From: Oscillospiraceae bacterium
Lineage (GTDB): Bacteria > Bacillota > Clostridia > Oscillospirales > Oscillospiraceae
Length of the DNA: 34,388 nt
Assembly (NCBI GenBank): GCA_017445875.1
Contig: JAFSRZ010000047.1
Coordinates: forward strand, 1-34,388
Direction: 5' to 3'
The translations under genes were made by a program, and so were the position numbers. Positions 3,777 to 29,645 of this stretch are shown here, piece by piece. Positions within the stretch are counted from its first letter, which is position 1, and every line of letters begins with the position of its first letter. Under the pieces are notes generated by a model. That model was not told the origin of the DNA and ran no database searches. It saw only the letters and a program-made list of their open reading frames with translations.

Positions 3777-4802
3777 ATGAAAACCAGTGACTTTTCCTAC
3801 GAACTCCCGCCGGAACTGATAGCCCAACACCCGTCGGAACGGCGCGACGCCTCCCGCCTCATGACGCTCAACCGCGCCACGGGCGAAATCGGACACTATC
3901 ATTTCTATGATTTGCCGCGCTTTCTATGCCCCGGAGACTGTATGATTTTGAACAACTCCCGCGTGATTCCGGCGCGGCTTTTGGGACAGCGTCAGCCGGG
4001 CGGCGGCGTCAGTGAAATTTTACTCTTGACGGAACGCGGGGACGGCGTGTGGGAATGCCTTGTCCGTCCGGGGCGGAAACTGCGTCCGGGAACTGTTGTC
4101 ACGTTCGGGAACGGCGAACTGTCGGCGGAAATTCTGGAACGTCTCGACAACGGAAACCGTCTCGTGAAATTCACGTGGGACGGTATTTTTCTGGAAGTGC
4201 TGGAACGCCTCGGAGAAATGCCCCTGCCGCCGTATATCCGCGAGAAACTCCGTGACCGTGACCGTTATCAGACGGTGTACGCGAAAATCAACGGAAGCGC
4301 GGCGGCACCGACGGCCGGACTGCATTTCACGGAAGAACTGCTGTCGGAAATCCGTCAGCGCGGCGTGGAAATCGGCTCCGTGACACTGCATGTCGGCTTG
4401 GGGACATTCCGCCCGGTGCGGGAAGAAAATCCACTTGACCATGAAATGCACAAGGAATACTGTGTTGTGCCGTCGGAGACCGCCGAATTAGTCAACCGTA
4501 CCCGCGCCCGTGGCGGACGCTGTGTGTGCGTGGGTACGACCTCCTGCCGGACGCTCGAAACGTGGGCGGACGATAACGGGAAACTGCGTTCCGGCGCGGA
4601 TTGGACGGGCATTTATATTTATCCCGGCTACCAATTCAAGGTCACGGACGCGCTTGTGACGAATTTCCACCTGCCGGAAAGCACACTCTTAATGTTGGTG
4701 TCTGCCTTCGCGGGACGCGAACGCGTTTTGAACGCCTACCGGGAGGCGGTCAAAGAACGCTACCGCTTTTTCTCGTTTGGCGACGCTATGTTGCTGATTT
4801 AA
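3777..4802 (+). CDS. queA: S-adenosylmethionine:tRNA ribosyltransferase-isomerase
   Basis: Transfers and isomerises the ribosyl part of SAM to preQ1 at tRNA position 34, making epoxyqueuosine. The product is 341 residues from the ATG at 3777, which has AAAGGACGG upstream; an in-frame ATG at 3738 would add 13 unrelated residues. Family signatures include FSYELPPELIAQHP, ASRLMTLNR, ILNNSRVIPARLLG, PLPPYIREKL, the AAPTAGLHFTEELL block, VTLHVGLGTFRPV, and TNFHLPESTLLMLVSAFAG near the C-terminus. It appears monocistronic here; tgt is not adjacent. A hairpin at 4861-4903 follows. Confidence 0.97.
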   Translation: MKTSDFSYELPPELIAQHPSERRDASRLMTLNRATGEIGHYHFYDLPRFLCPGDCMILNNSRVIPARLLGQRQPGGGVSEILLLTERGDGVWECLVRPGRKLRPGTVVTFGNGELSAEILERLDNGNRLVKFTWDGIFLEVLERLGEMPLPPYIREKLRDRDRYQTVYAKINGSAAAPTAGLHFTEELLSEIRQRGVEIGSVTLHVGLGTFRPVREENPLDHEMHKEYCVVPSETAELVNRTRARGGRCVCVGTTSCRTLETWADDNGKLRSGADWTGIYIYPGYQFKVTDALVTNFHLPESTLLMLVSAFAGRERVLNAYREAVKERYRFFSFGDAMLLI

Positions 4803-11260: not shown

Positions 11261-11989
11261 ATGACTTTGGCAACATATTTACAATCGCAGTTCAGCACCG
11301 CCCAAGAACTGGAATTTCTGCTCCGGCTGCTGGCGGCGGGACTGTGCGGCGGTATCATCGGACTGGAACGGAGCAGGCGTCTGAAAGAGGCCGGACTTCG
11401 GACACATGTCATTGTCTGCTGTACGGCGGCGCTCATGATGATTATTTCCAAGTACGGCTTCGCGGACTTGCGTACCGTCGACGGGCTGGACTTCAGCGGA
11501 ATCAAGGGTGCCGACTCCGCCCGTATTGCGGCGCAAGTCGTCAGCGGAGTCAGCTTTCTGGGCGCGGGTGCCATTTTCAAGAGCGGCAACACTATCAAAG
11601 GTCTGACGACGGCGGCGGGTATCTGGGCAACGTCGGGAATCGGGCTGGCACTCGGCGCGGGAATGTACGTGTTAGGCATTGCCGCGACGCTCATTATCAT
11701 TGTTTTTCAGACACTCATGCACAAATTCACCTTCGGCGCGGAATCCATGGAGGCGCACTATCTCTCGTTCACGATGTCGGCCGACCGGAGTTTCCGCGAC
11801 GTGTTCAACCAGTACATGGAGGAACACCGGATACAGGTCACGGACAGCGACTTGACCTATACCAGTGACGGCCTCGTGACCTGTAACATGATTGTCAAAA
11901 TGCCGCAGACGTTCTCCATTTACGACGTTGACCAGTTCCTACACGAACACTGTGACATTAAAAAGCTCAGCTATTCCAACTTCGCGTGA
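11261..11989 (+). CDS. MgtC/SapB family membrane protein
   Basis: A 242-residue protein with an N-terminal membrane domain of about four to five helices (residues 18-160) and a soluble C-terminal ACT-like domain. Hallmarks are GGIIGLERSRRLKEAGLRTH, with the conserved Glu-Arg pair, SGVSFLGAGAIFK, and GLTTAAGIWATSGIGLALG. Family members have been linked to magnesium adaptation, acid tolerance and inhibition of the F-type ATP synthase. Being first in the same transcript as the Mrp-like genes, 22 bases before MnhE, suggests a shared role in ion or membrane-potential balance; that is inference. AAGGGGG precedes the ATG. Confidence 0.94.
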   Translation: MTLATYLQSQFSTAQELEFLLRLLAAGLCGGIIGLERSRRLKEAGLRTHVIVCCTAALMMIISKYGFADLRTVDGLDFSGIKGADSARIAAQVVSGVSFLGAGAIFKSGNTIKGLTTAAGIWATSGIGLALGAGMYVLGIAATLIIIVFQTLMHKFTFGAESMEAHYLSFTMSADRSFRDVFNQYMEEHRIQVTDSDLTYTSDGLVTCNMIVKMPQTFSIYDVDQFLHEHCDIKKLSYSNFA

Positions 11990-12011: not shown

Positions 12012-12467
12012 ATGTCAATTCTGTTGTTTCTGCTCTGGCTCCTGCTCAACGGGCGTCTGACACTGGAAATTGTTGTCATTGGCGCGGGCGTCACGGCGTT
12101 GCTGATAGCCTTTATGTCGCGCTTCATGGGCTGGTCTCCCCGGCGGGAACGCGATATTCTCCGGTGTCTGCCGCTGTTCCTGCTCTACCTGCTCAACCTG
12201 CTTTGGGAGACGGTCAAGGCCGCCGCTACGGTGTTACTTGTGGCGCTGACGCCCTCCATGCACCCGGAACCCGTGCTTGTCGAGTTTCATTCGGGACTGC
12301 CCCGCGAGTATCAAAACGTCATTCTGGCGAACTCCATCACGCTGACACCCGGTACTATCACGGTGTTTCAGGAGGGAGACCATTTTCTGGTACACGCCTT
12401 GCGCCGGGAGTACGCGGAAGGCCTGAACCGTTCGTCATTCGTGCTGTTGTTGCGGAAATTTCCTTGA
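12012..12467 (+). CDS. mnhE: Mrp/Mnh antiporter subunit E (MbhA-like)
   Basis: A 151-residue membrane protein with an N-terminal pair of helices (LLFLLWLLLNGRLTLEIVVIG) and the MnhE C-terminal domain with FHSGLPREYQNVILANSITLTPGT and the closing VLLLRKFP. Subunit E is a small structural part of Mrp-type Na+/H+ antiporters and of the matching arm of membrane-bound hydrogenases. The ATG at 12012 has AAGGGAC upstream. It is the first of ten consecutive rightward genes with short or overlapping junctions. Confidence 0.93.
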   Translation: MSILLFLLWLLLNGRLTLEIVVIGAGVTALLIAFMSRFMGWSPRRERDILRCLPLFLLYLLNLLWETVKAAATVLLVALTPSMHPEPVLVEFHSGLPREYQNVILANSITLTPGTITVFQEGDHFLVHALRREYAEGLNRSSFVLLLRKFP

Positions 12468-12490
12468 ATGTCCGAAAGGAGACTGTTCTT

Positions 12491-12814
12491 GTGGACGTGC
12501 AAAAGGCTTATGAACTGCTCTATACATTCGTGCTGACGGGAATCGCGCTGTTGCTGTTCGTGATGCTGTTCCGTTCGGTCAGGGGTCCCGGTGTCACGGA
12601 CTGTCTTGTGTCCATTAACATGGTCGGGACACTGGTTATCGCGGCAATCGTGATTTTGTCGCGGCTCTTGGGGGAGGCATGGCTGTTGGACGTGGCGCTT
12701 ATTTATACGATGATTAGTCTTGTGTCCGTGCTGATTCTGGCGCGGGTGCTGATTCCGCCGAAACCGTCCCGGAAACGTTTCCGCGACGAGAAGGGGGGCG
12801 GCGCACATGTCTGA
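12491..12814 (+). CDS. mnhF: Mrp/Mnh antiporter subunit F
   Basis: A 107-residue protein with three membrane helices. The family block is LFRSVRGPGVTDCLVSINMVGTL followed by WLLDVALIYTMISLVSVLILAR. The start is the GTG at 12491, eight bases after AAAGGAGA; no ATG lies before the conserved first helix. It ends in a basic tail that overlaps the start of subunit G by eight bases. Confidence 0.92.
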   Translation: MDVQKAYELLYTFVLTGIALLLFVMLFRSVRGPGVTDCLVSINMVGTLVIAAIVILSRLLGEAWLLDVALIYTMISLVSVLILARVLIPPKPSRKRFRDEKGGGAHV

Positions 12815-13124
12815 ATGGGTACGCTTCTGGCTGACTGCGGTTATCCTGTGTACCGGACTTCTGTTTTTCGCGGGGGCGGTACTCGGAAACTGCCGCTTTG
12901 CCTACGTCATGAACCGGGTTCACGCCGCCGGAATCGGGGATACCATGGGACTGTTTTATGTCGTGCTGGCTGTGGCGCTCAACGCCTCCGGACTGCTGGA
13001 AGCGCTCAAATGTTTCCTGCCGCTGGTATTTCTGTGGGTCTGCTCCCCGGTCTCGTCACACCTTATCGCGCAAATCGAATACTACACCAATCAGCACCTT
13101 TACGACCACATGACAAGACTGTGA
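12807..13124 (+). CDS. mnhG: Mrp/Mnh antiporter subunit G
   Basis: A 105-residue protein with three membrane helices. It shows the MnhG pattern: a first helix ending GAVLGNCRF, then YVMNRVHAAGIGDTMG with the conserved His-Ala-x-x-x-x-Asp-Thr motif, and a third helix followed by VSSHLIAQIEY. The start overlaps subunit F. AAGGGGGGCG just upstream is the ribosome site. Confidence 0.93.
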   Translation: MSEWVRFWLTAVILCTGLLFFAGAVLGNCRFAYVMNRVHAAGIGDTMGLFYVVLAVALNASGLLEALKCFLPLVFLWVCSPVSSHLIAQIEYYTNQHLYDHMTRL

Positions 13125-13137
13125 GAGGCGAACCGGC

Positions 13138-13554
13138 ATGAATTTTCAGGAAGTCTACAAAATTGCGCTTGTCGTGCTGTTGATTGTCTGCGCGGTGTCG
13201 GTGAATCTGACGCGAAGCCTGTTACGGTCGGTTATTATTTTCATGTCCTACAGTTCGATAATGTGTCTGCTGTGGATACTGATGGAGTCGCCGGACTTGG
13301 CGATTACGGAAGCGGCAGTCGGCGCGGGAATCAGCGGGTATTTGTTCCTTGTGACGCTCAAAAAACTGCGTCAGATAGACGGCATGGACGACCGCCAGCG
13401 CGAGGACGGCGCGTGGACGGATACCGCCCCCGAAATGGAACCGTCACCGGAAACTTTCCCGGACGGCGGCGTGTCGCAACAGAGAACAGACAGCGCCTCC
13501 GGCGTCGTCAAAAAGAAACGGCGTCGGGCGAAACGGAAAGAAGGCCGATTATGA
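13138..13554 (+). CDS. MbhD-like subunit (DUF4040, MrpA C-terminal module)
   Basis: A 138-residue protein. Residues 1-80 form three membrane helices with LLRSVIIFMSYSSIMCLLWILMESPDLAITEAAVG, the signature of the domain that is MbhD in membrane-bound hydrogenases and part of the MrpA tail in Mrp antiporters. Residues 81-138 are a polar cytoplasmic tail ending in a strongly basic KKKRRRAKRKEGR cluster, which is unusual for the family. GAGAGGCG precedes the ATG. Its stop overlaps the next start as ATGA. Confidence 0.9.
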   Translation: MNFQEVYKIALVVLLIVCAVSVNLTRSLLRSVIIFMSYSSIMCLLWILMESPDLAITEAAVGAGISGYLFLVTLKKLRQIDGMDDRQREDGAWTDTAPEMEPSPETFPDGGVSQQRTDSASGVVKKKRRRAKRKEGRL

Positions 13555-14531
13555 ACGCGGACAAATTCCGCCGCTGGCTCAACGGCGAAACGGATATCAT
13601 GGGGCATATTCTGGACACGCAAACAGGCCATGACCTGCCCCGGCAAGACCAAAGGCGTCTGCAACACGAGGCCGAAGAAGTGGCGATAGTCCGCATGGGG
13701 CGCGTGATACACTCGGAACGGCGTCTGTTTTCGGCGTGGTACCGCGTGGCGGCTGTGCTGTGCTGTCTGACACTGATGGCGGTGTTTCTGTACATGGTGG
13801 CGCATATCACGCGGTACGGCGCGGAAAATCCACGCGTCGCGGAAGTCGCGGAACGCTACGTCGAACACGGTTTAGAGGAAACCGGGGCAACGAACATTGT
13901 CGCGGGTATGATACTCGATTACCGCGCCTTTGACACGCTGGGGGAATCCCATGTACTTTTTACGGCGCTGATTTGCGTCATGATTCTGTTACGGCGCGAC
14001 CGAAAGAACATGCGCACGGCCTACGAGGACTATTACCGCATTCAGGACGAGGACTATTTTCCAACGAACCAAGACCCGATAGCGCGGCGCGTCGGCGGAA
14101 TTTTGGTGCCGTGTATCCTGCTGTTCGGCGTCTATATCCTGCTCAATGGGCAGATTTCACCGGGCGGCGGCTTTTCGGGCGGCGCTGTACTGGGTGCCGG
14201 ACTGGTGATTTTCGCGTCCACACGCGGGGACAGTGTTGTTGACAAGTTCCTGACAAAGCGCGTGTTTCAGTGGGCGGCGTTCTGTGCGCTCTCGTTCTAC
14301 AGTCTCGCTAAGGGCTATGTCTTTTTCACGGGTGCCAACGGGCTGGAAAATCACATTCCGAAGGGCGTGCCGGGGGCGATACTCTCCGGCGGACTCATTC
14401 TCCCGCTTGATATCGCCGTCGGACTGGTCGTGGCCTGTACTATGTTCGGCTTTTACAGTCTGTTCCGGCGCGGGATTATCGGCGGCGACGACGCGCCGCG
14501 TGTCACCGGAACCGGGGGAAAGGAAGCGTAA
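13551..14531 (+). CDS. Fused MbhE-MnhB subunit
   Basis: A 326-residue protein joining two modules. After a polar N-terminus (1-60) and a membrane helix at about 65-87 comes the MbhE motif NIVAGMILDYRAFDTLGES (115-133). MnhB follows from about residue 180, with the signature GQISPGGGFSGG (200-211) and three further helices; a short polar tail ends it. In Mrp antiporters the MbhE part is the end of MrpA; in Mbh hydrogenases MbhE and MbhF (MrpB) are separate genes. The ATG at 13551 overlaps the previous stop. Confidence 0.92.
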   Translation: MNADKFRRWLNGETDIMGHILDTQTGHDLPRQDQRRLQHEAEEVAIVRMGRVIHSERRLFSAWYRVAAVLCCLTLMAVFLYMVAHITRYGAENPRVAEVAERYVEHGLEETGATNIVAGMILDYRAFDTLGESHVLFTALICVMILLRRDRKNMRTAYEDYYRIQDEDYFPTNQDPIARRVGGILVPCILLFGVYILLNGQISPGGGFSGGAVLGAGLVIFASTRGDSVVDKFLTKRVFQWAAFCALSFYSLAKGYVFFTGANGLENHIPKGVPGAILSGGLILPLDIAVGLVVACTMFGFYSLFRRGIIGGDDAPRVTGTGGKEA

Positions 14532-14533
14532 CC

Positions 14534-14923
14534 ATGCAAGAAACCATTTCGGCGTTACTGGCGAATTACGAGGAGGCCGCCGCTATTATTCTGTTTGTGA
14601 TTGGGCTGTCCATGCTTCTTTTCCACGGGAACCTGATTAAGAAACTTATCGGCATGAACATCATGGACACGGGCAGTTTTCTGTTTCTGGCGAGTATGGG
14701 CTATATCGAGAACCGCAAAGCCCCGATTTTAGTCGACGGCCTGCGGGAGTTCGAGGACTATATCAACCCCGTTCCCGCCGGACTGGTGCTGACTGGAATC
14801 GTGGTATCCGTGTCCGTGACTGCGGTCATGCTGTCGCTTTCTATCCGGCTCTACAGGCGCTATCATACGCTGAACGTGGACGAGGTCTATCTTCTCTCCC
14901 GGCACCAGTTGGAGGACAGATGA
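14534..14923 (+). CDS. mnhC: Mrp/Mnh antiporter subunit C (NuoK-like)
   Basis: A 129-residue NuoK homologue with three membrane helices. The pattern GLSMLLFHGNLIKKLIGMNIMDTGSFLF is the NuoK/MnhC core, and PVPAGLVLTGIVVSVSVTAVMLSLSIRLYRRY is the third helix. The GGGGGAAAGGA upstream is the ribosome site. It starts two bases after the MnhB module and ends one base before the first antiporter-like subunit. Confidence 0.93.
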   Translation: MQETISALLANYEEAAAIILFVIGLSMLLFHGNLIKKLIGMNIMDTGSFLFLASMGYIENRKAPILVDGLREFEDYINPVPAGLVLTGIVVSVSVTAVMLSLSIRLYRRYHTLNVDEVYLLSRHQLEDR

Positions 14924-14924
14924 C

Positions 14925-16487
14925 ATGGACTTTATCCGTAATTTCCCGCTGTTTACCATTATATTGAGCCTGTTTTCCAGTGTCCTTTGCATGCTCTTGG
15001 ACGGGCGCAAGGCCAAGCGTTACACGGTCTGCTATGCGTGCGTCCTGATTGCGCTTGCAAGCGCGGTGCTGTGGTACGTCTCCGCGACGGGCGAGCCGTT
15101 CACGTACGTCATGGGCGAGTTTCCCGCGCCGTGGGGGAACGAAATCCGCGCCGGTGTGCTGGAAGCCCTGCTGGCTGTCGTGTTCCTGACAGTCCTGCTC
15201 TGTTCGGTACTGGGCGGCTGGCGCTTCCTGCTCATCGACGTGGAACACAGTAAAATCAACCTCTATTTCACGCTTATCAACCTGTTGACTGCCGCGCTCA
15301 TGGCGCTTATCTGGACAAACGATATTTTTACCGGGTACGTCTTTCTGGAAATCCTCACGCTTTCCTCCTGCGGGATTCTGATTGTACGCGAAATCGGGCG
15401 TACCACGCTTGCGGCTGTCCGCTACATGGTGCTGAATCTGTTGGGGTCAGGACTGTTCCTGCTGGGCGTGGTTCTGCTGTACTCCCTCACGGGACACCTG
15501 CTCATGGTACCCATGCGGGCGGCAATTTCGGAAATCGTCGCGGCGGAAGGCGGCGTCACGACGATTACATTTTCTCTGGCGGTGCTGACTATCGGACTGG
15601 GCATTAAAAGCGGCCTGTTCCCGTTCTACTTCTGGATGCCCGACACCTACGGCACCGCTACCCCCACGTCCGCCGCGATTCTCTCCGCGCTGGCCTCGAA
15701 AGCCTATATTATCCTGCTGTTCAAAATCTATTGGCGGGTCGTCGGTATCGAAGTATTCCAGCAACTTCCGATTCACTGGTTACTGTTCTGTCTGGGCATT
15801 CCGGGCATGATATTCGGCTCGGTGTCGGCAATCCGGGAGAACAATATTCACAGAATGATAGCGTTTTCATCGGCGGCGCAGACCGGGTATATTTACATGG
15901 GTCTCGGCATGGGAAGTCCGTTAGGATATGTCGCGGCGCTGTTTCAGCTCATCGCCCACGCGGTCACGAAGTCGCTTTTGTTTCTGACGACGCCGCGTCT
16001 GGCGCGGGTGTCCGGGGACAGTCTGCTGTTCCAGAACCTGCAAGGAAGCGGTATCCGGGACAGAAGCGCCGGATTCTTTTTCACGCTCTGCGCGTTGTCG
16101 ATGGTCGGGATACCGGTTTTCGCCGGATTTTCCGCGAAACTGTTCTTTGCTGTCGCGGCGGTGGATACCGGGAAATTGGGTGTGCTGTTCCCTACCATGC
16201 TGGCCTTAGCCGTCAGCGCCGTACTGAACGCGCTGTACTTTATCCGCACCGTGATTCGGATTTACACCGCCGGACGCGGCGGGGCGGATATCTCCGCGCC
16301 GCGCATTTACGCCGAGGAACACAACGACGCCGATTCCGGCGAACCTCTGCCCATGTCAGAGACGCGTTCCGAACGGCGTTCGTACTGGGTGTCGGCGCTG
16401 ATTCTGACGGGAATGAATCTGTTTTTGGGGCTGTTCTCGTGGATTACGGTGGATTTCATCCGGCTGGGTCTCGACATGTTCGCGTGA
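14925..16487 (+). CDS. Antiporter-like subunit 1 (MrpD/MbhH/NuoN family)
   Basis: A 520-residue membrane protein of about 14 helices, family PF00361. Proton-path residues are present: Glu142 in helix 5 (VFLEILTLSSCG), Lys228 in helix 7 (GLGIKSGLFPFYFWMPD), Lys259 in helix 8 (LASKAYIILL), and a Lys in helix 12 (HAVTKSLLFL). By position it matches MrpD or MbhH, directly after subunit C. A polar loop with many acidic and basic residues (about 445-485) precedes the last helix. It is the first of four such subunits in a row. Confidence 0.93.
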   Translation: MDFIRNFPLFTIILSLFSSVLCMLLDGRKAKRYTVCYACVLIALASAVLWYVSATGEPFTYVMGEFPAPWGNEIRAGVLEALLAVVFLTVLLCSVLGGWRFLLIDVEHSKINLYFTLINLLTAALMALIWTNDIFTGYVFLEILTLSSCGILIVREIGRTTLAAVRYMVLNLLGSGLFLLGVVLLYSLTGHLLMVPMRAAISEIVAAEGGVTTITFSLAVLTIGLGIKSGLFPFYFWMPDTYGTATPTSAAILSALASKAYIILLFKIYWRVVGIEVFQQLPIHWLLFCLGIPGMIFGSVSAIRENNIHRMIAFSSAAQTGYIYMGLGMGSPLGYVAALFQLIAHAVTKSLLFLTTPRLARVSGDSLLFQNLQGSGIRDRSAGFFFTLCALSMVGIPVFAGFSAKLFFAVAAVDTGKLGVLFPTMLALAVSAVLNALYFIRTVIRIYTAGRGGADISAPRIYAEEHNDADSGEPLPMSETRSERRSYWVSALILTGMNLFLGLFSWITVDFIRLGLDMFA

Positions 16488-16502
16488 CTGGAGGAATTGT
16501 CA

Positions 16503-18041
16503 ATGCTCTTGTTTACCATACTGTTCCCGATACTGGCGGGTGTGGCGGTGTCGGTACGCCCCATGCCGCGCCGGACGCGTCTGCAATGGTACGCCGCTGT
16601 CATGCTTCTGACGGACGTTTTCGCGGTCTGGTGTATGTTGTACGCGCCGCCCGTGCGGCTGTTCGCGCTGACGGAAACACTTGACTTTCACTTTGCTTTG
16701 GACACAATCGGACGCGTGTTTCTGTCGGTGGTACTGTTCGTGTACACCGCCGCGTGTTTCTACGCGTTCGAGTACATGTCCGGGGAGGAACGGGAGGAAG
16801 CGTTTTTCACGTTTTATTTCGCCTCGCTGGGCGCGGTGATGTCCGCCTGCATGACCGGAAACCTCGTGACGTTCTATTTCTGCTTTGAACTCGCTACGCT
16901 AAGCTCCATGCCGCTTGTCCTGCATGAAGGGACAAAAGAGGCGATTTCCGCCGCGCTGAAATATCTCTTTTACTCTATCGGCGGCGCGTTACTCGGACTG
17001 CTGGCGGTGGTGTGCCTGTTCTGGTACGGCGCGGACGCGAATCAGTTCGCGGCGGGCGGCTTCCTCGACGCCGCACGTGTCGCCGGACATGAATCCATGT
17101 TACGCGCTGTCGTGCTGTGCGGAATTGTCGGCTTCGGCGCGAAAGCCGGTATGTACCCGTTGCACGGCTGGCTTCCCGCCGCGCACCCTATCGCGCCCGC
17201 GCCCGCGTCGGCACTGCTGTCGGGCATTATCGCAAAAATGGGCGTGCTGGGCGTGATACGCCTCGTGTACTTCTCCGCCGGGGCGGCGCTCATTCGCGGA
17301 ACTTGGGTACAATATACGTGGATGTGTCTGGCAATGGGAACGATTTTCATGGGTTCCATGATGGCTTTCCGCGAAAAGGTCATGAAAAAACGCCTTGCCT
17401 ACTCGTCAATCAGCCAGATTTCGTATATTATGCTGGGGCTGTCGCTGTTGAACGCGGGCGGCCTCACGGGCGGACTGCTCCATTTCGCGGCGCACGCGGT
17501 CTCTAAGGGGACACTGTTCCTTTGCGCGGGCGTGTTCATTCACAAGCTCGGACGCCGGGAGGCGTCGCAACTGCGCGGTGTCGGACAACTCATGCCCGTG
17601 ACCATGTGGTGTTTCCTGATAGCGTCGCTGTCACTGGTGGGTATTCCGCCGCTGGGAGGCTTTGCCAGTAAATGGTATTTGTCGGTGTCGGCGATTGCGG
17701 GCGGAATGGGCGTGTTCTCGATTCTGCCGCCCGTGATACTGTTGGTGTCGGCGTTCCTGACGGCTGGATACCTGTTGCCGGTAGCCGTCGACGCGTTTTT
17801 TCCGGGGCGTGACTTCTCCGTGAAGCAAGCCTTCGGAGACTGCCCCGACGTACAGAAACGGCTCCCGGCGTCCACCGGCAAGACCAAAAAACAAAAGGCG
17901 GTATCGTTGACCGGCGCGGCGGAACCGTCCGCGTTAATGACTGTGCCGCTTGTGGCACTGTGCGCGGCGGCGCTGTGCGTCGGACTGTTCGGGGCGTGGT
18001 TCGCGGAAGCGCTCGGCGGCGTGATACGGGGGCTGGTGTAA
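16503..18041 (+). CDS. Antiporter-like subunit 2 (NuoM/NuoN/MrpD family)
   Basis: A 512-residue, roughly 14-helix protein. Key residues are Glu129 (FCFELATLSSMP), Lys214 (FGAKAGMYPLHGWLPAAHPIAP), Lys245 (IIAKMGVLG) and the helix 12 Lys in HAVSKGTLFL. The ATG at 16503 is eight bases after GGAGG (16490-16494); an in-frame TTG at 16497 is too close. The stop TAA shares one base with the next ATG (TAATG). A cytoplasmic loop at about 430-475 is rich in Lys and Asp. Its proton-conducting role is inferred from the residues. Confidence 0.93.
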   Translation: MLLFTILFPILAGVAVSVRPMPRRTRLQWYAAVMLLTDVFAVWCMLYAPPVRLFALTETLDFHFALDTIGRVFLSVVLFVYTAACFYAFEYMSGEEREEAFFTFYFASLGAVMSACMTGNLVTFYFCFELATLSSMPLVLHEGTKEAISAALKYLFYSIGGALLGLLAVVCLFWYGADANQFAAGGFLDAARVAGHESMLRAVVLCGIVGFGAKAGMYPLHGWLPAAHPIAPAPASALLSGIIAKMGVLGVIRLVYFSAGAALIRGTWVQYTWMCLAMGTIFMGSMMAFREKVMKKRLAYSSISQISYIMLGLSLLNAGGLTGGLLHFAAHAVSKGTLFLCAGVFIHKLGRREASQLRGVGQLMPVTMWCFLIASLSLVGIPPLGGFASKWYLSVSAIAGGMGVFSILPPVILLVSAFLTAGYLLPVAVDAFFPGRDFSVKQAFGDCPDVQKRLPASTGKTKKQKAVSLTGAAEPSALMTVPLVALCAAALCVGLFGAWFAEALGGVIRGLV

Positions 18042-19528
18042 TGCTCATTATGGAATGGAACCCGCTCCTGTTACTCGTCCCGATTCTCCTGCCGATACTG
18101 TGCGGCGGCTGGCTGTTGCTCGGTCGGCGCATGGACAGCAAAAACCGGGAACTGTTTACAGAAGTAGCGGCCTGTTTCACCAGTACGGCGGTCTTTCTGT
18201 CGCTGTCGAACATCCGGCGCGGAAGCGTGGCGACGGTCTACACCTTCATCGACGGCTTTTCCGTGGGGTTCATGATGGACGGTCCGGGTATGTTGTTCGC
18301 GGGTATGGTCGCGGTCATGTGGCCTCTGGCGTTGCTCTACGCCTTCTCCTACATGGAACGCGCCCCCCGGCAAAACAGTTTCTTTGCCTTCTACCTCATG
18401 ACGTACGGTGTCACGCTGGCGGTCGCGTTCTCGGCGAATCTGGTCACGATGTACGTCTGCTTTGAACTGCTGACACTGGTCACAATTCCGCTTGTGGCGC
18501 ACTCGCAGAATACGGACAGCACCTACGCCGGGTACTTGTACGCGGCCTACTGTATCGCGGGGGCGGCGCTGGCACTCGTGGCGGTCGTACTCGGCACACT
18601 GGACGGCTCCGGTACGTTTCACTTCGGCGGCAATCTGGCGAATGAGTACCCGTCCGCGCTCATGCGTACGGTGTACCTGTTCGGATTTATCGGTTTCGGC
18701 ACGAAAGCCGCTGTTTTCCCGCTCTATATCTGGCTCCCGAAAGCGTCCGTAGCCCCGACGCCCGTCACGGCCTTACTGCATGCCGTGGCGGTGGTCAATA
18801 GCGGCGTGTTCGCGGTCACGCGCCTGACTTGGTACGCCTTCGGCCCCAATTTACTATCCGAAAGCGCGGTACGGACATTCTGTGTCCTGCTTTCGTCGTT
18901 CTCGATGGTGTTCGCGGCGGTAATGGCGCTCAAAGAACGCCACTTCAAGCGGCGTCTGGCCTACTCCACGATGAGTAATCTTTCCTATATGCTCTTCGGC
19001 GTCAGTCTCATGACAGGACACGGATTGACGGGCGCTCTGTCCCATATGCTCTTTCACGGCGTGATTAAAATGTCCCTGTTCCTCTGCGCGGGGGCGTTCA
19101 TGCACGTGACCGGGAAAGAGTACCTGTACGAAATCAACGGACAGGGCTGGCGCATGCCGTACACGTTCACGGCGTACACACTCGGCGCGTTGTCGCTGAC
19201 GGGGATTCCGCTGTTCTGCGGGTTCGTGTCGAAATGGCGACTGCTGACGGCGGGTGTCGCCGCCGGGACTTGGGCGGATATGGTCGGCGTGGCGGCACTG
19301 CTGTTGTCGGCGTTCCTGTGTGCCATGTACACGTTATCGGTCAGCGTGCGGGCGTTTCTGCCGCGTACGCCCGATTCCGGCGCGGCGGAACTCCCCGCCG
19401 GGATTCAAGAGGCGGACTGGCGGATGTTGGTACCGATTGGATTTTTCACGGCGGCAAATATCGCCTTTGGCGTGTGGTCGAAACCTGTCATGACGTTTCT
19501 GGAAGCGGTTTCCCGCGGTGTGCTGTGA
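18041..19528 (+). CDS. Antiporter-like subunit 3 (NuoL/MrpA-like)
   Basis: A 495-residue membrane protein. It has Glu142 (YVCFELLTLVTIPLV), Lys222 (FGTKAAVFPLYIWLPKASVAPTPV) and, in helix 8, His247 (LLHAVAVVNSGVF) where subunits 1, 2 and 4 have Lys. The His form is typical of NuoL and of the N-terminal part of MrpA, so this may be the MrpA-type member of the set, without its C-terminal MbhD/MbhE parts, which are encoded upstream. Helix 12 has FHGVIKMSLFLCAG with the expected Lys. The start overlaps the previous stop; a second in-frame ATG lies at 18050. Confidence 0.92.
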   Translation: MLIMEWNPLLLLVPILLPILCGGWLLLGRRMDSKNRELFTEVAACFTSTAVFLSLSNIRRGSVATVYTFIDGFSVGFMMDGPGMLFAGMVAVMWPLALLYAFSYMERAPRQNSFFAFYLMTYGVTLAVAFSANLVTMYVCFELLTLVTIPLVAHSQNTDSTYAGYLYAAYCIAGAALALVAVVLGTLDGSGTFHFGGNLANEYPSALMRTVYLFGFIGFGTKAAVFPLYIWLPKASVAPTPVTALLHAVAVVNSGVFAVTRLTWYAFGPNLLSESAVRTFCVLLSSFSMVFAAVMALKERHFKRRLAYSTMSNLSYMLFGVSLMTGHGLTGALSHMLFHGVIKMSLFLCAGAFMHVTGKEYLYEINGQGWRMPYTFTAYTLGALSLTGIPLFCGFVSKWRLLTAGVAAGTWADMVGVAALLLSAFLCAMYTLSVSVRAFLPRTPDSGAAELPAGIQEADWRMLVPIGFFTAANIAFGVWSKPVMTFLEAVSRGVL

Positions 19529-19549
19529 CGGAAGGGGGCTTGTGTCAAA

Positions 19550-21616
19550 ATGCGGATTGCGTTATTAGTATTTGTTCCCCTGCTGTGCGGCGTCGCGGCG
19601 TACGCTCTCGGACGCCGTGACGAACGCTGGCGCGACTGCGCGGTGTTACTGTGTACGGCGCTGTGCATGGGACTGTCGGTGTCGCTGACACTCTCTGCCT
19701 TGCGCGGGGAAATTGTCGCGCTGACGATTCCCCATGTGCTTGTCAACGGGCTTGCCTTTACGGCAACCGGTTTCCGCGCCCTCTACAGTCTGGTCACGTC
19801 GCTGATGTGGCTGTTTACGGCGCTGTTCTCGCGGGAATACTTCTCGCACGAGCCGGAAGGCCTCAACGCCTACTATCTGTTCACACTCATGACGCTTGGC
19901 GCGACACAGGGTGTCATGCTCTCGGCGGACTTTATGACGACATTCGTTTTCTTCGAGGTTCTGTCGCTGACTTCCTTTACTTGGGTCATGCACGAACAGT
20001 CCAAAGAAGCGATACACGCCGGATATACGTACTTGTTCGTGGCGGTGTTCGGCGGACTGGTTCTGCTGATGGGACTGTTTCTGCTTTCCGATGCCTGCGG
20101 CACACTGACATTTTCCGCGCTCCCCGACACCGTACGCAACGCGAACAGAACGCAAGTTTTCGCGGCGTCGGTCTGTATTCTGTTTGGCTTCGGCGCGAAA
20201 GCGGGTATGTTCCCGCTGCACATCTGGCTACCCATGGCGCACCCGGTCGCGCCGTCCCCGGCGTCGGCACTGCTGTCGGGCGTCCTGACGAAAGTCGGCG
20301 TCTACGGCGTCCTCATGACCGCTTTGCAACTGATGTACGGCAACCCTACTTTCGGACTGCTCCTGTTGACACTGGCACTCGTGACTATGTTCCTTGGCGC
20401 GTTACTGGCGCTGTTCTCGGTGAACCTCAAACGGACGCTCGCGTGTTCGTCCATGTCGCAAATTGGCTTCATCCTCACGGGACTGGCGTCTATGATACTC
20501 TGCGGCGTACAGACCGGCGCGGGTACGCTCTCCGACACCGGCGCGGCACTGGCAATCTCCGGGACTGTCCTGCACATGCTCAACCACTCTATGTTGAAAT
20601 TGCTCTTGTTCATGGCGGCGGGCGTCGTGCTGATGAACGTCCACGCGCTGACACTCGACGATATCCGGGGCTGGGGACGCAACAAAACCGCGTTAAAAAT
20701 CGCCTTCGCGGTCGGCGGACTGGGTATCAGCGGCGTGCCGCTCCTCAACGGCTACCTGTCAAAGTCCATGATTCACGAGGGCTTGGTACACCTCATCGAA
20801 AGTTCGGAGGAAACCGGATTCTTTATCGGGCGGACGCTCCGCTACTTCCACGCGGCGGAATGGGTGTTCCTGATTTCGGGCGGCCTGACATTCGCCTATA
20901 TGCTGAAACTGTTCCTGTGTGTGTTCGTAGAACGCAACGCGGACGCCGACAAACAGGCGTTATATGACAGTGACCCGGACTGCATGGACACGCTTTCCAC
21001 AACGGTTGTCACGCTGTCGGCGCTCCTGCTCGTGACACTCGGTCAACCGTGGATTGTGACACGTGTCGCGGCGTTCGTGGTACAGTCCTTCGGCGTCACC
21101 GAAAGCGCCCCGCATTTCGCCGCGTTCGCGTGGGAGAATCTCAAAGGCGGCCTGATTTCGCTGTCCGTTGGCGCGACGGTCTATCTGTTGTTCGTACGTC
21201 CCGTACTCCGTCCGCGTGGAGTGTACGTCAACCGCTGGCCTTCGGCGTGGAATCTGGAACAGAAACTTTATACGCCGCTGTTCACGCGCTGGCTCCCGAC
21301 ATTATTTGGCAACGTGGCGCGGCTGTTCGCCGAAAATCGTATCCTGCGGCGCGTGTGTCGTGGACTGCTGTTCGCGGCATCGGTACTGGCAACCGCGATG
21401 AATGACAGTTTGGACGCGCTGATTGTGCTGTCACGCCGGACGGTCGTCCGGGAAGTCAAAGTACGCGACGAGCGCGAGGCCGTACACATCGGACGCCTGC
21501 GGGCGTTCCGGCGCGCTACCGCCACCGCGCTGGAATCGTTCAATTTCTCCTTCGCGCTTCTCATGACCTGTCTGGGCGTCATTGTGATTCTCGGCCTTCT
21601 GCTGGTTCTGCTCTGA
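19550..21616 (+). CDS. Antiporter-like subunit 4 with long C-terminal extension
   Basis: A 688-residue protein, the last of the cluster. The antiporter core (about 1-460) keeps Glu136 (FVFFEVLSLTSF), Lys217 (FGAKAGMFPLHIWLPMAHPVAP), Lys248 (VLTKVGVYG) and Lys350 (LNHSMLKLLLFM). After two more helices (about 483-500 and 532-549), residues 565-660 are a long charged, mostly helical stretch without membrane helices, and 668-688 is a final membrane helix. This layout recalls the lateral helix plus terminal anchor of NuoL. A GAAGGGGG ribosome site lies upstream. A hairpin follows at 21621. Confidence 0.92.
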   Translation: MRIALLVFVPLLCGVAAYALGRRDERWRDCAVLLCTALCMGLSVSLTLSALRGEIVALTIPHVLVNGLAFTATGFRALYSLVTSLMWLFTALFSREYFSHEPEGLNAYYLFTLMTLGATQGVMLSADFMTTFVFFEVLSLTSFTWVMHEQSKEAIHAGYTYLFVAVFGGLVLLMGLFLLSDACGTLTFSALPDTVRNANRTQVFAASVCILFGFGAKAGMFPLHIWLPMAHPVAPSPASALLSGVLTKVGVYGVLMTALQLMYGNPTFGLLLLTLALVTMFLGALLALFSVNLKRTLACSSMSQIGFILTGLASMILCGVQTGAGTLSDTGAALAISGTVLHMLNHSMLKLLLFMAAGVVLMNVHALTLDDIRGWGRNKTALKIAFAVGGLGISGVPLLNGYLSKSMIHEGLVHLIESSEETGFFIGRTLRYFHAAEWVFLISGGLTFAYMLKLFLCVFVERNADADKQALYDSDPDCMDTLSTTVVTLSALLLVTLGQPWIVTRVAAFVVQSFGVTESAPHFAAFAWENLKGGLISLSVGATVYLLFVRPVLRPRGVYVNRWPSAWNLEQKLYTPLFTRWLPTLFGNVARLFAENRILRRVCRGLLFAASVLATAMNDSLDALIVLSRRTVVREVKVRDEREAVHIGRLRAFRRATATALESFNFSFALLMTCLGVIVILGLLLVLL

Positions 21617-21677: not shown

Positions 21678-21707
21678 TTGACTTTTGCCACACCCTATGA
21701 AATAATG
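21678..21707 (+). promoter_or_regulatory. Probable promoter and leader of the Na/Pi symporter gene
   Basis: TTGACT (21678-21683), an 18-nt spacer, ATAATG (21702-21707). The leader of about 100 bases contains a short stem CAGCT/AGCTG near 21724-21739 and a GCCGGG/CCCGGC stem at 21763-21780. No recognisable Pho box or riboswitch was found. Confidence 0.5.
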
Positions 21708-21811: not shown

Positions 21812-23611
21812 ATGGATGTTTCTAACGTGATTTCACTGTTAAGCGGCGTGGCGCTGTTTCTGTTCGGCATGTCCCTCATGGGGGACGGTCTCAAACGCGT
21901 CGCCGGAAACCGTCTGGAAGGTCTGCTGTACAAGCTCACCAACACAAAGTTGAAAGGTATCCTGTTAGGCACCGGTATCACCGCCGTGATACAGTCGTCC
22001 TCGGCGACTTCCGTCATGGTCGTGGGCTTCGTCAACTCCGGTATGATGAAGTTTGAACAGGCAATCAGTATCATACTGGGCGCGATTCTCGGCACAAGCG
22101 TCACGGGCTGGGTCATCTGCCTGTCGGACATCAGCGGCGGAAGCGGCTGGGTGTCGCTCCTGTCCACGAGTACGCTTACGGGACTGATTGCCGTGACCGG
22201 TATCATCATCCGGACTGTCGCCAAACGCGCCACTCACCGACACGTCGGCGATATCATGATGGGTTTCGCCGTGCTGATGTTCGGCATGAGTACCATGAGC
22301 GGCGCTGTCGCCCCGTTGAAGGAAATGCCCGCGTTCGTGGCGCTGTTGACTTCGTTCTCGAATCCGCTGTTAGGCTTTTTAGCGGGCGTCGCGTTCACGG
22401 CGATTCTCCAAAGCGCGTCGGCGGCTGTCGGTATCCTGCAAGCCCTCGCCATTACCGGGGCTGTCACATTCGCAACCGCGTTCCCGCTGTTAATGGGTAT
22501 CGGCGTCGGCGCGGCGCTTCCGGTTCTGATGGCCGCCGCCGGAGCTTCTGTCGACGCCCGCCGCAGTGCCGTTGTGTACCTGTTGAGCCAGACTATCGGC
22601 GCGGCACTGCTCGGAACTGTTTTCTATGTTGCGAATGCCGTCGTACACTTCCCGTTTATGACCATGGTATTGACGACTGTCCACATTGCCGCCCTGAATA
22701 CGCTTTACCGCCTCCTGTGCGTGCTGATTCTCGCGCCGCAGACGGGTTTACTTGCCAAACTGACTTGCGCTATCGTCAAAGAGGAAGTGTCGCCCGAAGG
22801 CGAAGAGGACAAGGGTCCCGTATTCGAGGAACGTTTCCTGCCGTTCCCGCCTCTTGCGCTGGAACAGTGCCGGGCGGAAATTAACAAAATGGCGGATATC
22901 ACACAGCAAAGCGTCATTGTCGCGCTGGAAACTATCGCGCACTATAACGAGGAAAAGGCCAAACGCGTGGTCAAACTCGAAAAAGCCACTGACCGTTACG
23001 AGGACGCGCTGGGTACGTATATCCTGAAAGCCTCCAAGCGCGAACTCAACACCGAACAGAATCAGCAGTTCACGCGCTTTCTGCACACCATTACCGACTT
23101 TGAGCGTATCGGCGACCACGCCCTGAACATTGTGGAAGTCATGGAACACATGCACGAACAGGACAGCTCTTTCACGGGCAACGCCCTCGCGGAACTCGAA
23201 GTCATGAAAAACGCCTTGACGGAAGTTCTGTCCATGACTGTCCAGTCCTTCCAGAACGACGATTCGGCGCTTGCCGAAAAGGTCGAACCGCTGGAACAGG
23301 TTATCAACGGCTTACAGGACAGTATCAAGAGCCGTCATGTCGAGCGCATGAAAGCCGGAATCTGCACCATGACGCAGGGAATCTCCCTGAACGACCTTTT
23401 GACCGATTTGGAGCGCATTTCCGACCACTGTTCCAATATCGCGCTGGCGACTATCGAACTGCGTCAAAATGTGTTCCTGACGCACCCGGATTTGTACCAC
23501 AACGCGAATCAGGCCGAAAATGTCCACATGTTCGAGGATTACAGCCGCCGTTTCGCGTTGCCGGAGCCGTCCAAAGCCCCCGACGCCGCCCCCGCCCCCT
23601 CCGAAGCCTGA
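21812..23611 (+). CDS. Na/Pi cotransporter family protein with PhoU domain
   Basis: A 599-residue protein. The N-terminal 320 residues are two Na_Pi_cotrans repeats with the inverted QSSSATS (61-67) and QSASAA (200-205) motifs that form the substrate pore in type II sodium-phosphate symporters. The C-terminal 340-570 is a soluble four-helix PhoU-like bundle with FERIGDHALNIVE and LERISDHCSNIALA, which usually bind metal or regulate transport. The tail is Pro/Ala-rich. AGGGGGAG precedes the ATG at 21812. It is predicted to import phosphate using sodium. It lies next to a putative sodium/proton antiporter, which could restore the sodium gradient it uses, though it has its own promoter. Confidence 0.95.
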   Translation: MDVSNVISLLSGVALFLFGMSLMGDGLKRVAGNRLEGLLYKLTNTKLKGILLGTGITAVIQSSSATSVMVVGFVNSGMMKFEQAISIILGAILGTSVTGWVICLSDISGGSGWVSLLSTSTLTGLIAVTGIIIRTVAKRATHRHVGDIMMGFAVLMFGMSTMSGAVAPLKEMPAFVALLTSFSNPLLGFLAGVAFTAILQSASAAVGILQALAITGAVTFATAFPLLMGIGVGAALPVLMAAAGASVDARRSAVVYLLSQTIGAALLGTVFYVANAVVHFPFMTMVLTTVHIAALNTLYRLLCVLILAPQTGLLAKLTCAIVKEEVSPEGEEDKGPVFEERFLPFPPLALEQCRAEINKMADITQQSVIVALETIAHYNEEKAKRVVKLEKATDRYEDALGTYILKASKRELNTEQNQQFTRFLHTITDFERIGDHALNIVEVMEHMHEQDSSFTGNALAELEVMKNALTEVLSMTVQSFQNDDSALAEKVEPLEQVINGLQDSIKSRHVERMKAGICTMTQGISLNDLLTDLERISDHCSNIALATIELRQNVFLTHPDLYHNANQAENVHMFEDYSRRFALPEPSKAPDAAPAPSEA

Positions 23612-28032: not shown

Positions 28033-28060
28033 CCTGTCGCTCTCTTCGTGGAGTGACAGG
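28033..28060 (+). terminator. Hairpin between cysE and the BspA-like gene
   Basis: CCTGTCGCTC (28033-28042) pairs with GAGTGACAGG (28051-28060) with one G-U. No T-run follows, so read-through from the T-box transcript is possible. No promoter is seen between here and 28095. Confidence 0.5.
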
Positions 28061-28094
28061 GGGGCAACCACCGATATCTAAGGAGGCACACAAC

Positions 28095-29645
28095 ATGAAG
28101 AAGCATTTCCTGAGCGTATGCGCGGCGCTGTTCGCGCTGATGGTACTGTGTTCCGTAACGACACGCGCCGCCGACAACGTGTACGCGATACTCTACGATG
28201 ACGGCACACTTGTTTTCCAGCACGGCAACACCCCCGAATCCGGCAGGACTGTTATCAAAACGTATGAGGTTGATTTGAACGCGGTCTATGTGGACGGTAA
28301 CACAGTATATGATAATCGTGTACCATGGCACAGTGAGCGGGAATCCGTGCGCGTTGTGAACTTCGCGGATAAAATCAGTCCGACCGCTACCACGGCATGG
28401 TTTTTTAATTGTACAAATCTGGAACGCGTGGACAATATCCAAAATCTGGATACCGCAAATGTTACAAATATGTGTTGTTTGTTTTACGGCTGTAGCAAAT
28501 TGACGGCGCTGGATGTGTCCCACTTCGATACCGCTAATGTTACGGATATGCGCTGGATGTTTCATTCCTGTAGCGGACTGACGACACTGGATGTATCCCA
28601 CTTCGACACCGCAAATGTCACGAATATGGCCTGTATGTTTCAAGTCTGTAGCGGGTTGACAACGCTGGATGTGTCCCACTTTGATACCGCCAAAGTTACA
28701 TCTATGGCCTATATGTTTCTCAATTGTAGCAAACTGACGACGCTGAATGTATCCCACTTCAATACCGCAAACGTCCAATCTATGCGTTACATGTTTCATG
28801 GGTGTAGTGGGCTGATGACGCTGGATGTGTCCCCTTTGGATACCGCCAACGTCACAACGATGTCCTACATGTTTGCTTACTGTTACAGACTGGCAGTGCT
28901 GGACATTTCAAATTTCGATACTGCCAAGGTCAAGAACATGGAATGTATGTTTTCCAACTGCTCCAATCTGCAATCAATCTTTACCTCTGACAGGTTCATA
29001 ACCGCGTCCATACCGGAGACTGAAGATTATAACAGTCGAAACATGTTTGAGAATTGCACAGCGCTTGTCGGCGGGAATGGTACCGGGTACGACAGCGAAC
29101 ACGTTGACAAGGAGTATGCCCGGATTGATACACCGTCCACGCCCGGTTATTTTATACTTGGATACACGCCGGAAACGTATGTTATCACGGCATACGCGGG
29201 GGAGGGCGGCACCGTCACACCCGCCGGGGATACCCGTATCAGTGCCGGAGGCACACAGAAATATGTCATGACCCCGAATCCCGGTTATCGTGTGCTGTCC
29301 GTGCGTATTGACGGCGTGGAAGTCGGCGCGTTGTCCGAGTACGTGTTTCAGAATGTCGTGACAGGTCACAATCTTGTGGTGTCCTTTGAACGTCTGCCGC
29401 GCTACGCGATAACCGCCGCCGTCAGCAGTGGCGACGAACTCTCCGTGACGCTCGAAAATTCCGGTGCCGTGACCGTGGTCGTGTGGTACGCCGACAGAAA
29501 CGGACAATTCCTGTCCGCCGACATGCAAACGGTATCCGCCAACGCCGGAACCGTGACATTTCCGCTCCCGTTCGCGTACAAGGCGCGTGTCACGCTGTTG
29601 GATTCCCGCTACGCGCCCTTGTGCGACCCCGTGGCGGTTCGCTGA
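28095..29645 (+). CDS. Secreted BspA-type leucine-rich repeat protein
   Basis: A 516-residue exported protein. Residues 1-25 are a signal peptide (MKKHFLSVCAALFALMVLCS, likely cut after TRA). Residues 118-299 are seven repeats of exactly 26 residues, pattern FDTANVTxMxxMFxxCSxLTTLDVSH (DUF285/BspA family). Residues 362-432 resemble a divergent InlB B-repeat (AGEGGTVTPAG). The last 80 residues are beta-rich. There is no LPXTG, membrane anchor or cell-wall-binding repeat, so how it stays on the surface is unclear. BspA-like proteins bind host or bacterial surfaces. The ATG at 28095 follows AAGGAGG. It interrupts the cysE-cysS pair, and its codon use is more AT-rich than the neighbours, suggesting later insertion. 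Confidence 0.9.
   Translation: MKKHFLSVCAALFALMVLCSVTTRAADNVYAILYDDGTLVFQHGNTPESGRTVIKTYEVDLNAVYVDGNTVYDNRVPWHSERESVRVVNFADKISPTATTAWFFNCTNLERVDNIQNLDTANVTNMCCLFYGCSKLTALDVSHFDTANVTDMRWMFHSCSGLTTLDVSHFDTANVTNMACMFQVCSGLTTLDVSHFDTAKVTSMAYMFLNCSKLTTLNVSHFNTANVQSMRYMFHGCSGLMTLDVSPLDTANVTTMSYMFAYCYRLAVLDISNFDTAKVKNMECMFSNCSNLQSIFTSDRFITASIPETEDYNSRNMFENCTALVGGNGTGYDSEHVDKEYARIDTPSTPGYFILGYTPETYVITAYAGEGGTVTPAGDTRISAGGTQKYVMTPNPGYRVLSVRIDGVEVGALSEYVFQNVVTGHNLVVSFERLPRYAITAAVSSGDELSVTLENSGAVTVVVWYADRNGQFLSADMQTVSANAGTVTFPLPFAYKARVTLLDSRYAPLCDPVAVR
28446..28991 (+). repeat. Seven 78-base tandem repeats in the BspA-like gene
   Basis: Units of 78 bases coding 26 residues each. A Cys recurs at residues 133, 159, 185, 211, 237, 263 and 289, exactly every 26 residues, with further Cys at 106, 127, 128, 180, 284 and 321. 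Confidence 0.9.

Follow-up and report, generated by a model that had tools for sequence, protein, structure and literature searches.

Membrane arms built of antiporter-like subunits (PF00361) are known from stand-alone cation/proton antiporters of the Mrp type (CPA3), from the MBH and MBS complexes and from complex I. Mrp antiporters of groups 1–3 (those of Anoxybacillus, Bacillus and Dietzia were compared; PDB 6z16, 7qru and 7d3u) have two antiporter-like subunits, MrpA-N and MrpD. The MBS complex of Pyrococcus furiosus (PDB 6u8y) combines two such subunits with a redox module. Here we describe an operon of ten genes, all coding for membrane proteins, at 12012–21616 on the plus strand of a 34,388-base stretch of DNA from an Oscillospiraceae bacterium. 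This stretch, hereafter the window, is an entire contig (JAFSRZ010000047.1, C30 in our numbering) of assembly GCA_017445875.1 (G000; 1.41 Mb, 49 contigs, completeness 76.94%). The operon carries four antiporter-like subunits (N1–N4) and no redox module. It probably encodes a stand-alone, group 3-like Mrp-type cation/proton antiporter, in which an MBS-like cation module would be joined to a proton arm of four subunits.

Gene content, nearest relatives and conservation

The ten proteins were scanned against Pfam (Table 1). The genes follow one another in the order MnhE, MrpF, MnhG, MbhD, MbhE–MnhB fusion, MnhC, N1, N2, N3 and N4, adjacent genes overlapping by up to 8 bases or lying no more than 23 bases apart. 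No PF00361 match other than N1–N4 is present in the assembly. The gene content, subunit lengths and tight packing listed in a preliminary description of this DNA are borne out by Pfam and by the coordinates. Homologues of all parts of MrpA–G are present in one cluster, the C-terminal part of MrpA being represented by MbhD and MbhE.

Judged by sequence, the closest module is that of MBS rather than MBH. MBS chains are the best PDB match for the MnhE, MbhD, MbhE–MnhB, MnhC and N1 proteins, and the same fusion (MbhE with MbhF) is described for MBS (PMC8415708). The preliminary description had assigned the first seven genes to the Mbh order; the order itself stands, but the fusion of MbhE with MnhB, which recalls MbsE, brings it closer to MBS. 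MrpF and MrpG find their best PDB matches in MBH and Mrp, respectively, and at the position of MrpF Asp35 MBS has Asp, whereas the present locus has Asn. The subunit counts cited earlier for the known systems (one in Mbh, two in Mrp, three in complex I) are refined by the two of MBS (PMC8415708) and by the four or five of some complex I variants (PMC9040806).

Mrp antiporters share their subunit types, their stand-alone nature and Lys-TM12 (lysine of transmembrane helix 12) with the arm described here. In Mrp of groups 1 and 2, however, MrpA holds its C-terminal part in one chain, whereas here MbhD and MbhE–MnhB are separate genes, and no match to the MbhD or MbhE Pfam families is found on N4. 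Since MrpA is split, the locus belongs to neither group 1 nor group 2 and fits only the loose group 3. Mrp further differs in its MrpC His37/His40 and MrpF Asp35, which are replaced here. The stand-alone group 3 Mrp of P. furiosus (mrpEFGBB'CD) likewise lacks a redox module and begins with E-F-G, but it has one antiporter-like subunit instead of four and a different B fusion.

Multiplied antiporter-like genes are on record elsewhere. Group 3 Mrp has mrpD, at times in multiple copies (PMC8415708), cyanobacterial clusters carry two mrpD (PMC5703873), and the nt-Nha of Natranaerobius lies outside any Mrp operon (PMC2764116). The group 3 Mrp of Candidatus Nitrospira alkalitolerans has two extra mrpA/mrpD-like genes behind mrpD (PMC7784846); this locus belongs to another phylum and is likened to ours by the description of its gene content only. 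Group 3 loci with several mrpD and the Nitrospira locus are thus in print and partly touch the refuting condition of the preliminary description, an earlier account of the same layout; among the papers listed in searches of open-licence PMC, none was recognized as presenting the ten-gene clostridial layout. The arm is also lengthened, to four or five antiporter-like subunits, in the 2M, green and Manganitrophaceae variants of complex I (PMC9040806), but these have a redox arm. Complex I is marked by a NuoH-like connector (PF00146) together with its redox arm; PF00146 is absent from the window's assembly and from 18 of the 20 genomes of the family that hold the arm or a large part of it. The operon likewise lacks the NiFe- or NuoD/B-like redox subunits of MBH/MBS-type complexes.

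Table 1. Genes of the ten-gene operon (positions in the window) with their family and structure matches
Feature	Positions	Strand	Matches
MrpE/MnhE-like subunit, 151 residues	12012..12467	+	PF01899 (MNHE) 1.6e-27; best PDB 6u8y_A (MBS) 3.2e-13
MrpF-like subunit, 107 residues	12491..12814	+	PF04066 (MrpF_PhaF) 1.3e-8; best PDB 6cfw_B (MBH) 1.1e-6
MrpG/MnhG-like subunit, 105 residues	12807..13124	+	PF03334 (PhaG_MnhG_YufB) 7.5e-19; best PDB 6z16_G (Mrp) 2.9e-6
MbhD-like subunit, 138 residues	13138..13554	+	PF13244 1.3e-19; PDB 6u8y_D 1.5e-8, 6cfw_D 2.8e-6
MbhE + MnhB fused, MbsE-like, 326 residues	13551..14531	+	PF20501 3.1e-11 and PF04039 4e-19 on a single chain; best PDB 6u8y_E (MbsE) 6.6e-16
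MrpC/MnhC-like subunit, 129 residues	14534..14923	+	PF00420 (Oxidored_q2) 3.8e-22; PDB 6u8y_G 1.2e-23
N1, proximal antiporter-like subunit, 520 residues	14925..16487	+	PF00361 (Proton_antipo_M) 1.1e-38; PDB 6u8y_H 2.7e-42
N2, second antiporter-like subunit, 512 residues (ATG start at 16503)	16503..18041	+	PF00361 6.1e-55 (scanned from 16500); best PDB 6cfw_H (MbhH) 6.7e-47
N3, third antiporter-like subunit, 495 residues	18041..19528	+	PF00361 6.7e-50; best PDB 8e9g_L (complex I L), 6z16_A (MrpA)
N4, distal antiporter-like subunit, 688 residues	19550..21616	+	PF00361 7.8e-48; best PDB 6cfw_H (MbhH) 3.3e-44

The best NCBIfam match of N4 is hydrogenase 4 subunit B, and its closest named match among the matches listed comes from a sheep-rumen metagenome-assembled genome (MAG) of Oscillibacter sp. 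(L077, 77% identity).

Conservation of the layout was followed with hidden Markov models built from 14 loci and the window and run over 101 sources, namely the window and 100 loci (L057–L156). The exact ten-gene order, the subject of a neighbourhood survey proposed in the preliminary description, is found in 71 of them. The remaining 30 comprise 19 cut by contig ends, the partial locus L074, two of other types (L062 and L076) and eight others, which deviate by frame sorting, split genes, a missing MnhC (L111) or a genuine fifth subunit (L060). Eighty of the 100 loci are the best 80 of at least 582 confirmed N4 matches, which makes the layout over-represented in this set. By title they come mainly from Lachnospiraceae, and further from Oscillibacter/Oscillospiraceae, Blautia, Erysipelotrichaceae, Peptostreptococcaceae and unplaced Clostridia; the majority are MAGs, and a few, such as Parablautia muri (L137), are not marked as such. 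The layout is more than chance, because the same order recurs in other genera.

Several apparent deviations were rejected. The five-subunit counts of L086 and L124 result from an N1 split into two pieces, that of L154 from a 158-residue reading inside its N3, and the gene swaps in L071, L089 and L150 are artefacts of sorting stop-to-stop frames. In L111, at about 4256–4274, there is no room for MnhC between MbhE–MnhB and N1; this could reflect loss, fusion or an assembly error.

In the family, PF00361 is present in 32 of 120 genomes, the window's own included, and 16 of the 32 have at least four matches in a row on one contig. Parts of the arm are split over contigs in G016, G025 and G106, and G107 (L074, G107:C261, minus strand) shows N2–N4, while the 2.9 kb upstream of 11421 yielded no N1. 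These four and the 16 make up the 20 arm genomes referred to throughout. A score of more than 200 bits for the fused MbhE–MnhB is reached by 42 of 250 family genomes (next family score, 68 bits) and, phylum-wide, by 2 of 299, including the window's (next score, 149 bits); two genomes of the same genus gave no match to it.

Descent of the antiporter-like subunits and arms of other lengths

The relationships of N1–N4 were derived from a tree of 77 PF00361 rows (LG+C20; supports given as bootstrap/Shimodaira–Hasegawa-like approximate likelihood ratio test). N1 forms a clade (100/98) beside MbsH/MbhH (91/79). N4 forms another (100/99) beside MbsH' and MrpA, a placement with a support of only 91/91 and long branches. 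N2 and N3 are sisters (99/100). They stand beside the middle subunits of three-subunit stand-alone arms at only 80/78, and the support of the middle-subunit clade is 100/99. In a tree of 41 rows the three-subunit middle protein is grouped with N3 (98/91) and not outside N2+N3; the N2+N3 constraint on this tree is not rejected (approximately unbiased test, p 0.113).

Arms of other lengths were found among 20 class-level loci, drawn from genomes with several PF00361 matches among the matches listed (68 of 293 class genomes matching). The layout of the window is present in four (L199, L208, L209 and L210), with L200 as a cut version. Eight have three-subunit stand-alone arms (L201, L202, L203, L206, L211, L214, L215 and L216). 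All of these except L216 read E F G MbhD MbhE MnhB C N1 N3-like N4; the antiporter-like subunits of L216 read N1 N4 N4. The former order is also that of a Peptoclostridium acidaminophilum plasmid (L193), which shares MrpF Asn43 and MrpC Asp45 with the window and has no redox match in its stretch, but has no N2 and encodes MbhE and MnhB as separate proteins.

Two genomes of another family of the class (L197 and L198) have a different four-subunit layout, in which MbhE and MnhB are likewise not fused. Its extra subunit forms a separate lineage (100/100) and lies on the distal side of the subunit with histidine in transmembrane helix 8 (TM8-His). The stand-alone arm of L060 (G018:C44, 4354–15498 of the locus, minus strand) has five subunits, the additional one being a full-length N1-like protein of 491 residues between N1 and N2. 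This layout and that of L197/L198 look like separate lengthenings, and from the sequences we infer that the arm was lengthened several times independently.

The distal subunit bears a C-terminal extension, in which a 118-residue linker (R550–F668) precedes the last hydrophobic segment. This extension may be the counterpart of the lateral helix in MrpA/NuoL. The use of the lateral helix as a ruler of arm length was rejected, since four-subunit arms do not have a clearly longer linker: its median is 115.5 in three-subunit arms (n = 10) vs 129 in four-subunit arms (n = 21; Mann–Whitney p 0.23), or 127 vs 129 when L062 and L216 are left out (p 0.71), where the rows are related and p serves as a guide only. 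Some lengths follow the expected direction, namely 181 residues in the five-subunit L060 and 162 and 180 in L197/L198 vs 141 in L206. The linker of L060 is the longest among the 32 compared, and one of 96 in a wider set reaches 196.

Conserved residues and the proposed exchange mechanism

Key residues were located by alignment with E. coli NuoL, NuoM, NuoN and HyfB and with Mrp, MBH and MBS chains from PDB; statements on helices and on the complex are sequence-based. All four subunits retain Glu-TM5 (E142 in N1, E130 in N2, E142 in N3 and E136 in N4), Lys-TM7 (K228, K215, K222 and K217, respectively) and Lys-TM12 (K405, K391, K398 and K405), as the preliminary description had it. The Glu-TM12 of E. 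coli NuoM is not seen in any of them. TM8 contributes K259 in N1, K246 in N2, H247 and N253 in N3 and K248 in N4. Lysine in three and histidine in one subunit had been noticed before, but the histidine belongs to the third gene and not to the long distal fourth. The channel residue set is conserved in 79/79 rows for N1, 86/86 for N2, 93/94 or 94/94 for N3 and 96/96 for N4; short sequences below the length limit, L062 and L076 were left out of these rows. Of the four, N3 alone carries the TM8 His of the NuoL/MrpA type (H247, 94/94). The same motif is present in eight of eight middle subunits (L193, L201, L202, L203, L206, L211, L215 and Rhizobium MrpD1), whereas N2 lacks it. L216, with TM8-His in none of its three antiporter-like subunits, contradicts a rule of one such subunit per arm.

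The cation module is similarly conserved. H128 of MnhE is retained in 76 of 78 rows, and MrpG His42 aligns with H39 (77/79). MrpF Asp29 and Asp59 correspond to D37 and D67, each invariant in 79 rows. The position of MrpF Asp35, which is Asp in all four PDB chains compared, is occupied by N43 in 79/79 rows and in 17 of 18 other clostridial loci, L062 having Phe (L060 enters both counts); replacement of Asp35 by Leu inactivates Mrp, according to PMC7419157. The MbhD-like subunit, equivalent to the C-terminal part of MrpA, has a charged C-terminal tail, and its E58 (80/80) matches MBH Glu69. D128 and E132 of MbhE–MnhB (80/80) lie at about the places of MrpA Asp792 and Glu796 at the cation exit, a pairing based on the 6z16_A range (54 vs 56 residues) and on the 6cfw_E and 7d3u_A alignments. 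MrpC Ser36-His37...His40 is replaced by D45-T46...F49, with D45 in 79 of 80 rows and nearer to MBH Asp37 and the MBS Glu than to Mrp. A coupling site of the MbhD Glu69/MbhG Asp37 type is thus present (E58 and D45), MbhG His41 being replaced by Phe/Tyr. By its residues the cation module is MBH/MBS-like rather than Mrp-like, and it has a mark of its own.

In the proposed mechanism, the proteins would assemble into one row consisting of the cation module (MnhE, MrpF, MnhG, MbhD, MbhE–MnhB and MnhC), N1, N2, N3 and the distal N4. As in the published Mrp model, H+ would enter through each subunit down the membrane potential. Electrostatic coupling from one subunit to the next could then drive a cation, Na+ or K+, out at the junction of N1, MnhC and MbhD. 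Given four intact residue sets, up to four H+ might enter per cation expelled, vs about two proposed for Mrp; at this ratio, a weak proton-motive force could suffice for a fermenter to maintain a steeper cation gradient. PMC7419157 proposes two H+ in per Na+ out for Mrp and states that the Mrp unit can grow, in complex I-like enzymes, to three or four subunits.

Several observations weigh against this interpretation. The Asn at MrpF Asp35 and the absent MrpC His37/His40 pair mean that the ion and the coupling could differ from those of Mrp. A brace spanning the whole arm, in the form of a clearly longer distal linker, is not supported. In L074, no N1 or earlier arm gene is found in the 2.9 kb upstream of N2–N4. 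The arm is not essential, as its patchy distribution indicates (42 of 250 family genomes; two same-genus genomes without a match). Finally, the stoichiometry of Mrp itself is called unknown, with 2 H+/Na+ supported, in PMC9568556.

The locus could also code for an ordinary Mrp in function, whose additional subunits serve a structural role or are in part redundant and whose ratio stays near 2 H+ per cation. The debate on the Mrp stoichiometry and a cation module that is otherwise Mrp/MBH-like are in keeping with this explanation. The full channel residue set, however, is present in all or all but one of the 79–96 rows per subunit, and N2 (TM8 Lys, 86/86) and N3 (His, 94/94) remain distinct. Neither would be expected of passive spacers, and we regard the explanation as rather unlikely, though a serious one.

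Beyond the four-subunit antiporter preferred here, a wider generalization could be put forward tentatively. Stand-alone Mrp-type machines of gut Clostridia may have been lengthened repeatedly, each added subunit raising the H+/cation ratio, as in a redox-free gear-box. The steps would be from three to four subunits by duplication of the middle subunit, to four by insertion beyond the TM8-His subunit, and to five in one genome.

Possible partners, neighbouring genes and significance

It is improbable that one operon makes two smaller complexes, for example an MBS-type module with N1 and a separate N2–N4 channel. The N2–N4 row of L074, with no N1 found upstream, would agree with such a division. 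In contrast, the gene order is fixed, with N1 adjoining MnhC and the long N4 in last place as in the three-subunit type, and it parallels how the subunits are physically arranged in Mrp and complex I (PMC7419157).

Neighbouring genes were searched for a redox partner with 63 Nuo, hydrogenase and Ech queries taken from hydrogenase 3/4, Rhizobium Nuo and local Ech stretches. None of the 719 neighbour open reading frames (ORFs), from 92 of the 100 sources, gave a blastp match at 1e-4; as a positive control, E. coli and Rhizobium queries recovered Ech loci. For the loci picked by N4, the flanks covered no more than about 2.5 kb on the upstream side and 10 kb on the downstream side. No redox module was thus found just outside the operon. 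No neighbour is common to more than 10 of the 100 sources compared. A conserved neighbour as partner was rejected, the largest shared cluster occurring in 10 of 100 sources at varying distances.

Genome searches for unlinked redox subunits gave a similar picture. PF00346, PF01058 and PF00146 are absent from 18 of the 20 arm genomes and from seven of the nine that are at least 90% complete; they are also absent from the window's assembly, at its completeness of 76.94%. The exceptions, G046 and G094, carry these genes in a separate Ech-type cluster, which includes a single PF00361 gene of its own and lies on contigs C111 and C73, respectively, while the arm is on C104 and C14. Five of the 20 class-level loci (L204, L205, L207, L212 and L213) are redox-linked arms, and no E-F-G genes are present in their fetched stretches.

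Coupling to a non-homologous or transient partner, such as Rnf, a ferredoxin-linked flavoprotein or an upstream thioredoxin-like protein, is hardly to be expected. A thioredoxin-like gene (recognized by eye from its WCGPC motif) lies 34–75 bases upstream of MnhE in six of the 100 sources, all Lachnospiraceae-type (L124, L133, L137, L141, L148 and L153), and an Rnf/Nqr-type protein (PF03116) is encoded in 17 of 20 arm genomes. The former, however, is lineage-limited, and the latter is equally common in family genomes searched without a PF00361 match (18/20), so that there is no signal of co-occurrence with the arm. The presence of PF03116 in arm genomes suggests an independent primary ion pump.

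Docking of the arm on a Nuo- or NiFe-hydrogenase-like soluble module encoded elsewhere, one of two options of the preliminary description, would make it a redox-driven pump and is very unlikely, for although five of the seven proximal subunits best match MBS chains and MrpF an MBH chain, both complexes bearing redox modules, and although the window's assembly is incomplete, the redox families are missing from nearly all arm genomes and from the neighbouring ORFs, the redox genes of G046 and G094 stand on another contig beside a PF00361 gene of their own, and the redox-linked arms of the class show no E-F-G module. The other option, a stand-alone ion translocator with an enlarged proton arm, is supported by the conserved cassette, by the lack of a redox neighbour and by the 18 of 20 genomes devoid of redox families; we infer its assembly into one complex, its direction, the transported ion and the stoichiometry.

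Other observations concern the surroundings of the operon. In several of the six loci with the thioredoxin-like gene, a trmB-like gene (by eye) is found further upstream. In the window, an MgtC-family gene (11261–11989, plus strand), whose start is close to a promoter-like match, ends 22 bases before the operon. A Na+/Pi cotransporter gene with a PhoU domain (21812–23611) starts 195 bases downstream and is preceded by an extended -10 promoter-like site (21678–21706). Neither gene gave a blastp match in stretches L057–L076. A DUF285/leucine-rich-repeat-type surface-like protein with near-identical repeats (DVSHFDTANVT) is encoded at 28053–29645.

The assembly encodes a V-type rotor subunit as well as an F-type c-like protein (G000:C35 and G000:C17; L168 and L189). 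The V-type c subunit holds IPGTQ, AQGR and VEFYAIL stretches, ligand stretches that we take to resemble the Na+ type; several loci gave no readable match.

The question of how charge travels along the antiporter-like rows of complex I is complicated by its redox arm. Natural redox-free arms with three, four and five subunits allow a direct test: if one H+ passes through each subunit per cycle, every further subunit should raise the H+/cation ratio by a step. For relatives of the gut Lachnospiraceae and Oscillospiraceae, where Na+ and H+ circuits are of interest, the operon would represent an ion-exchange machine.

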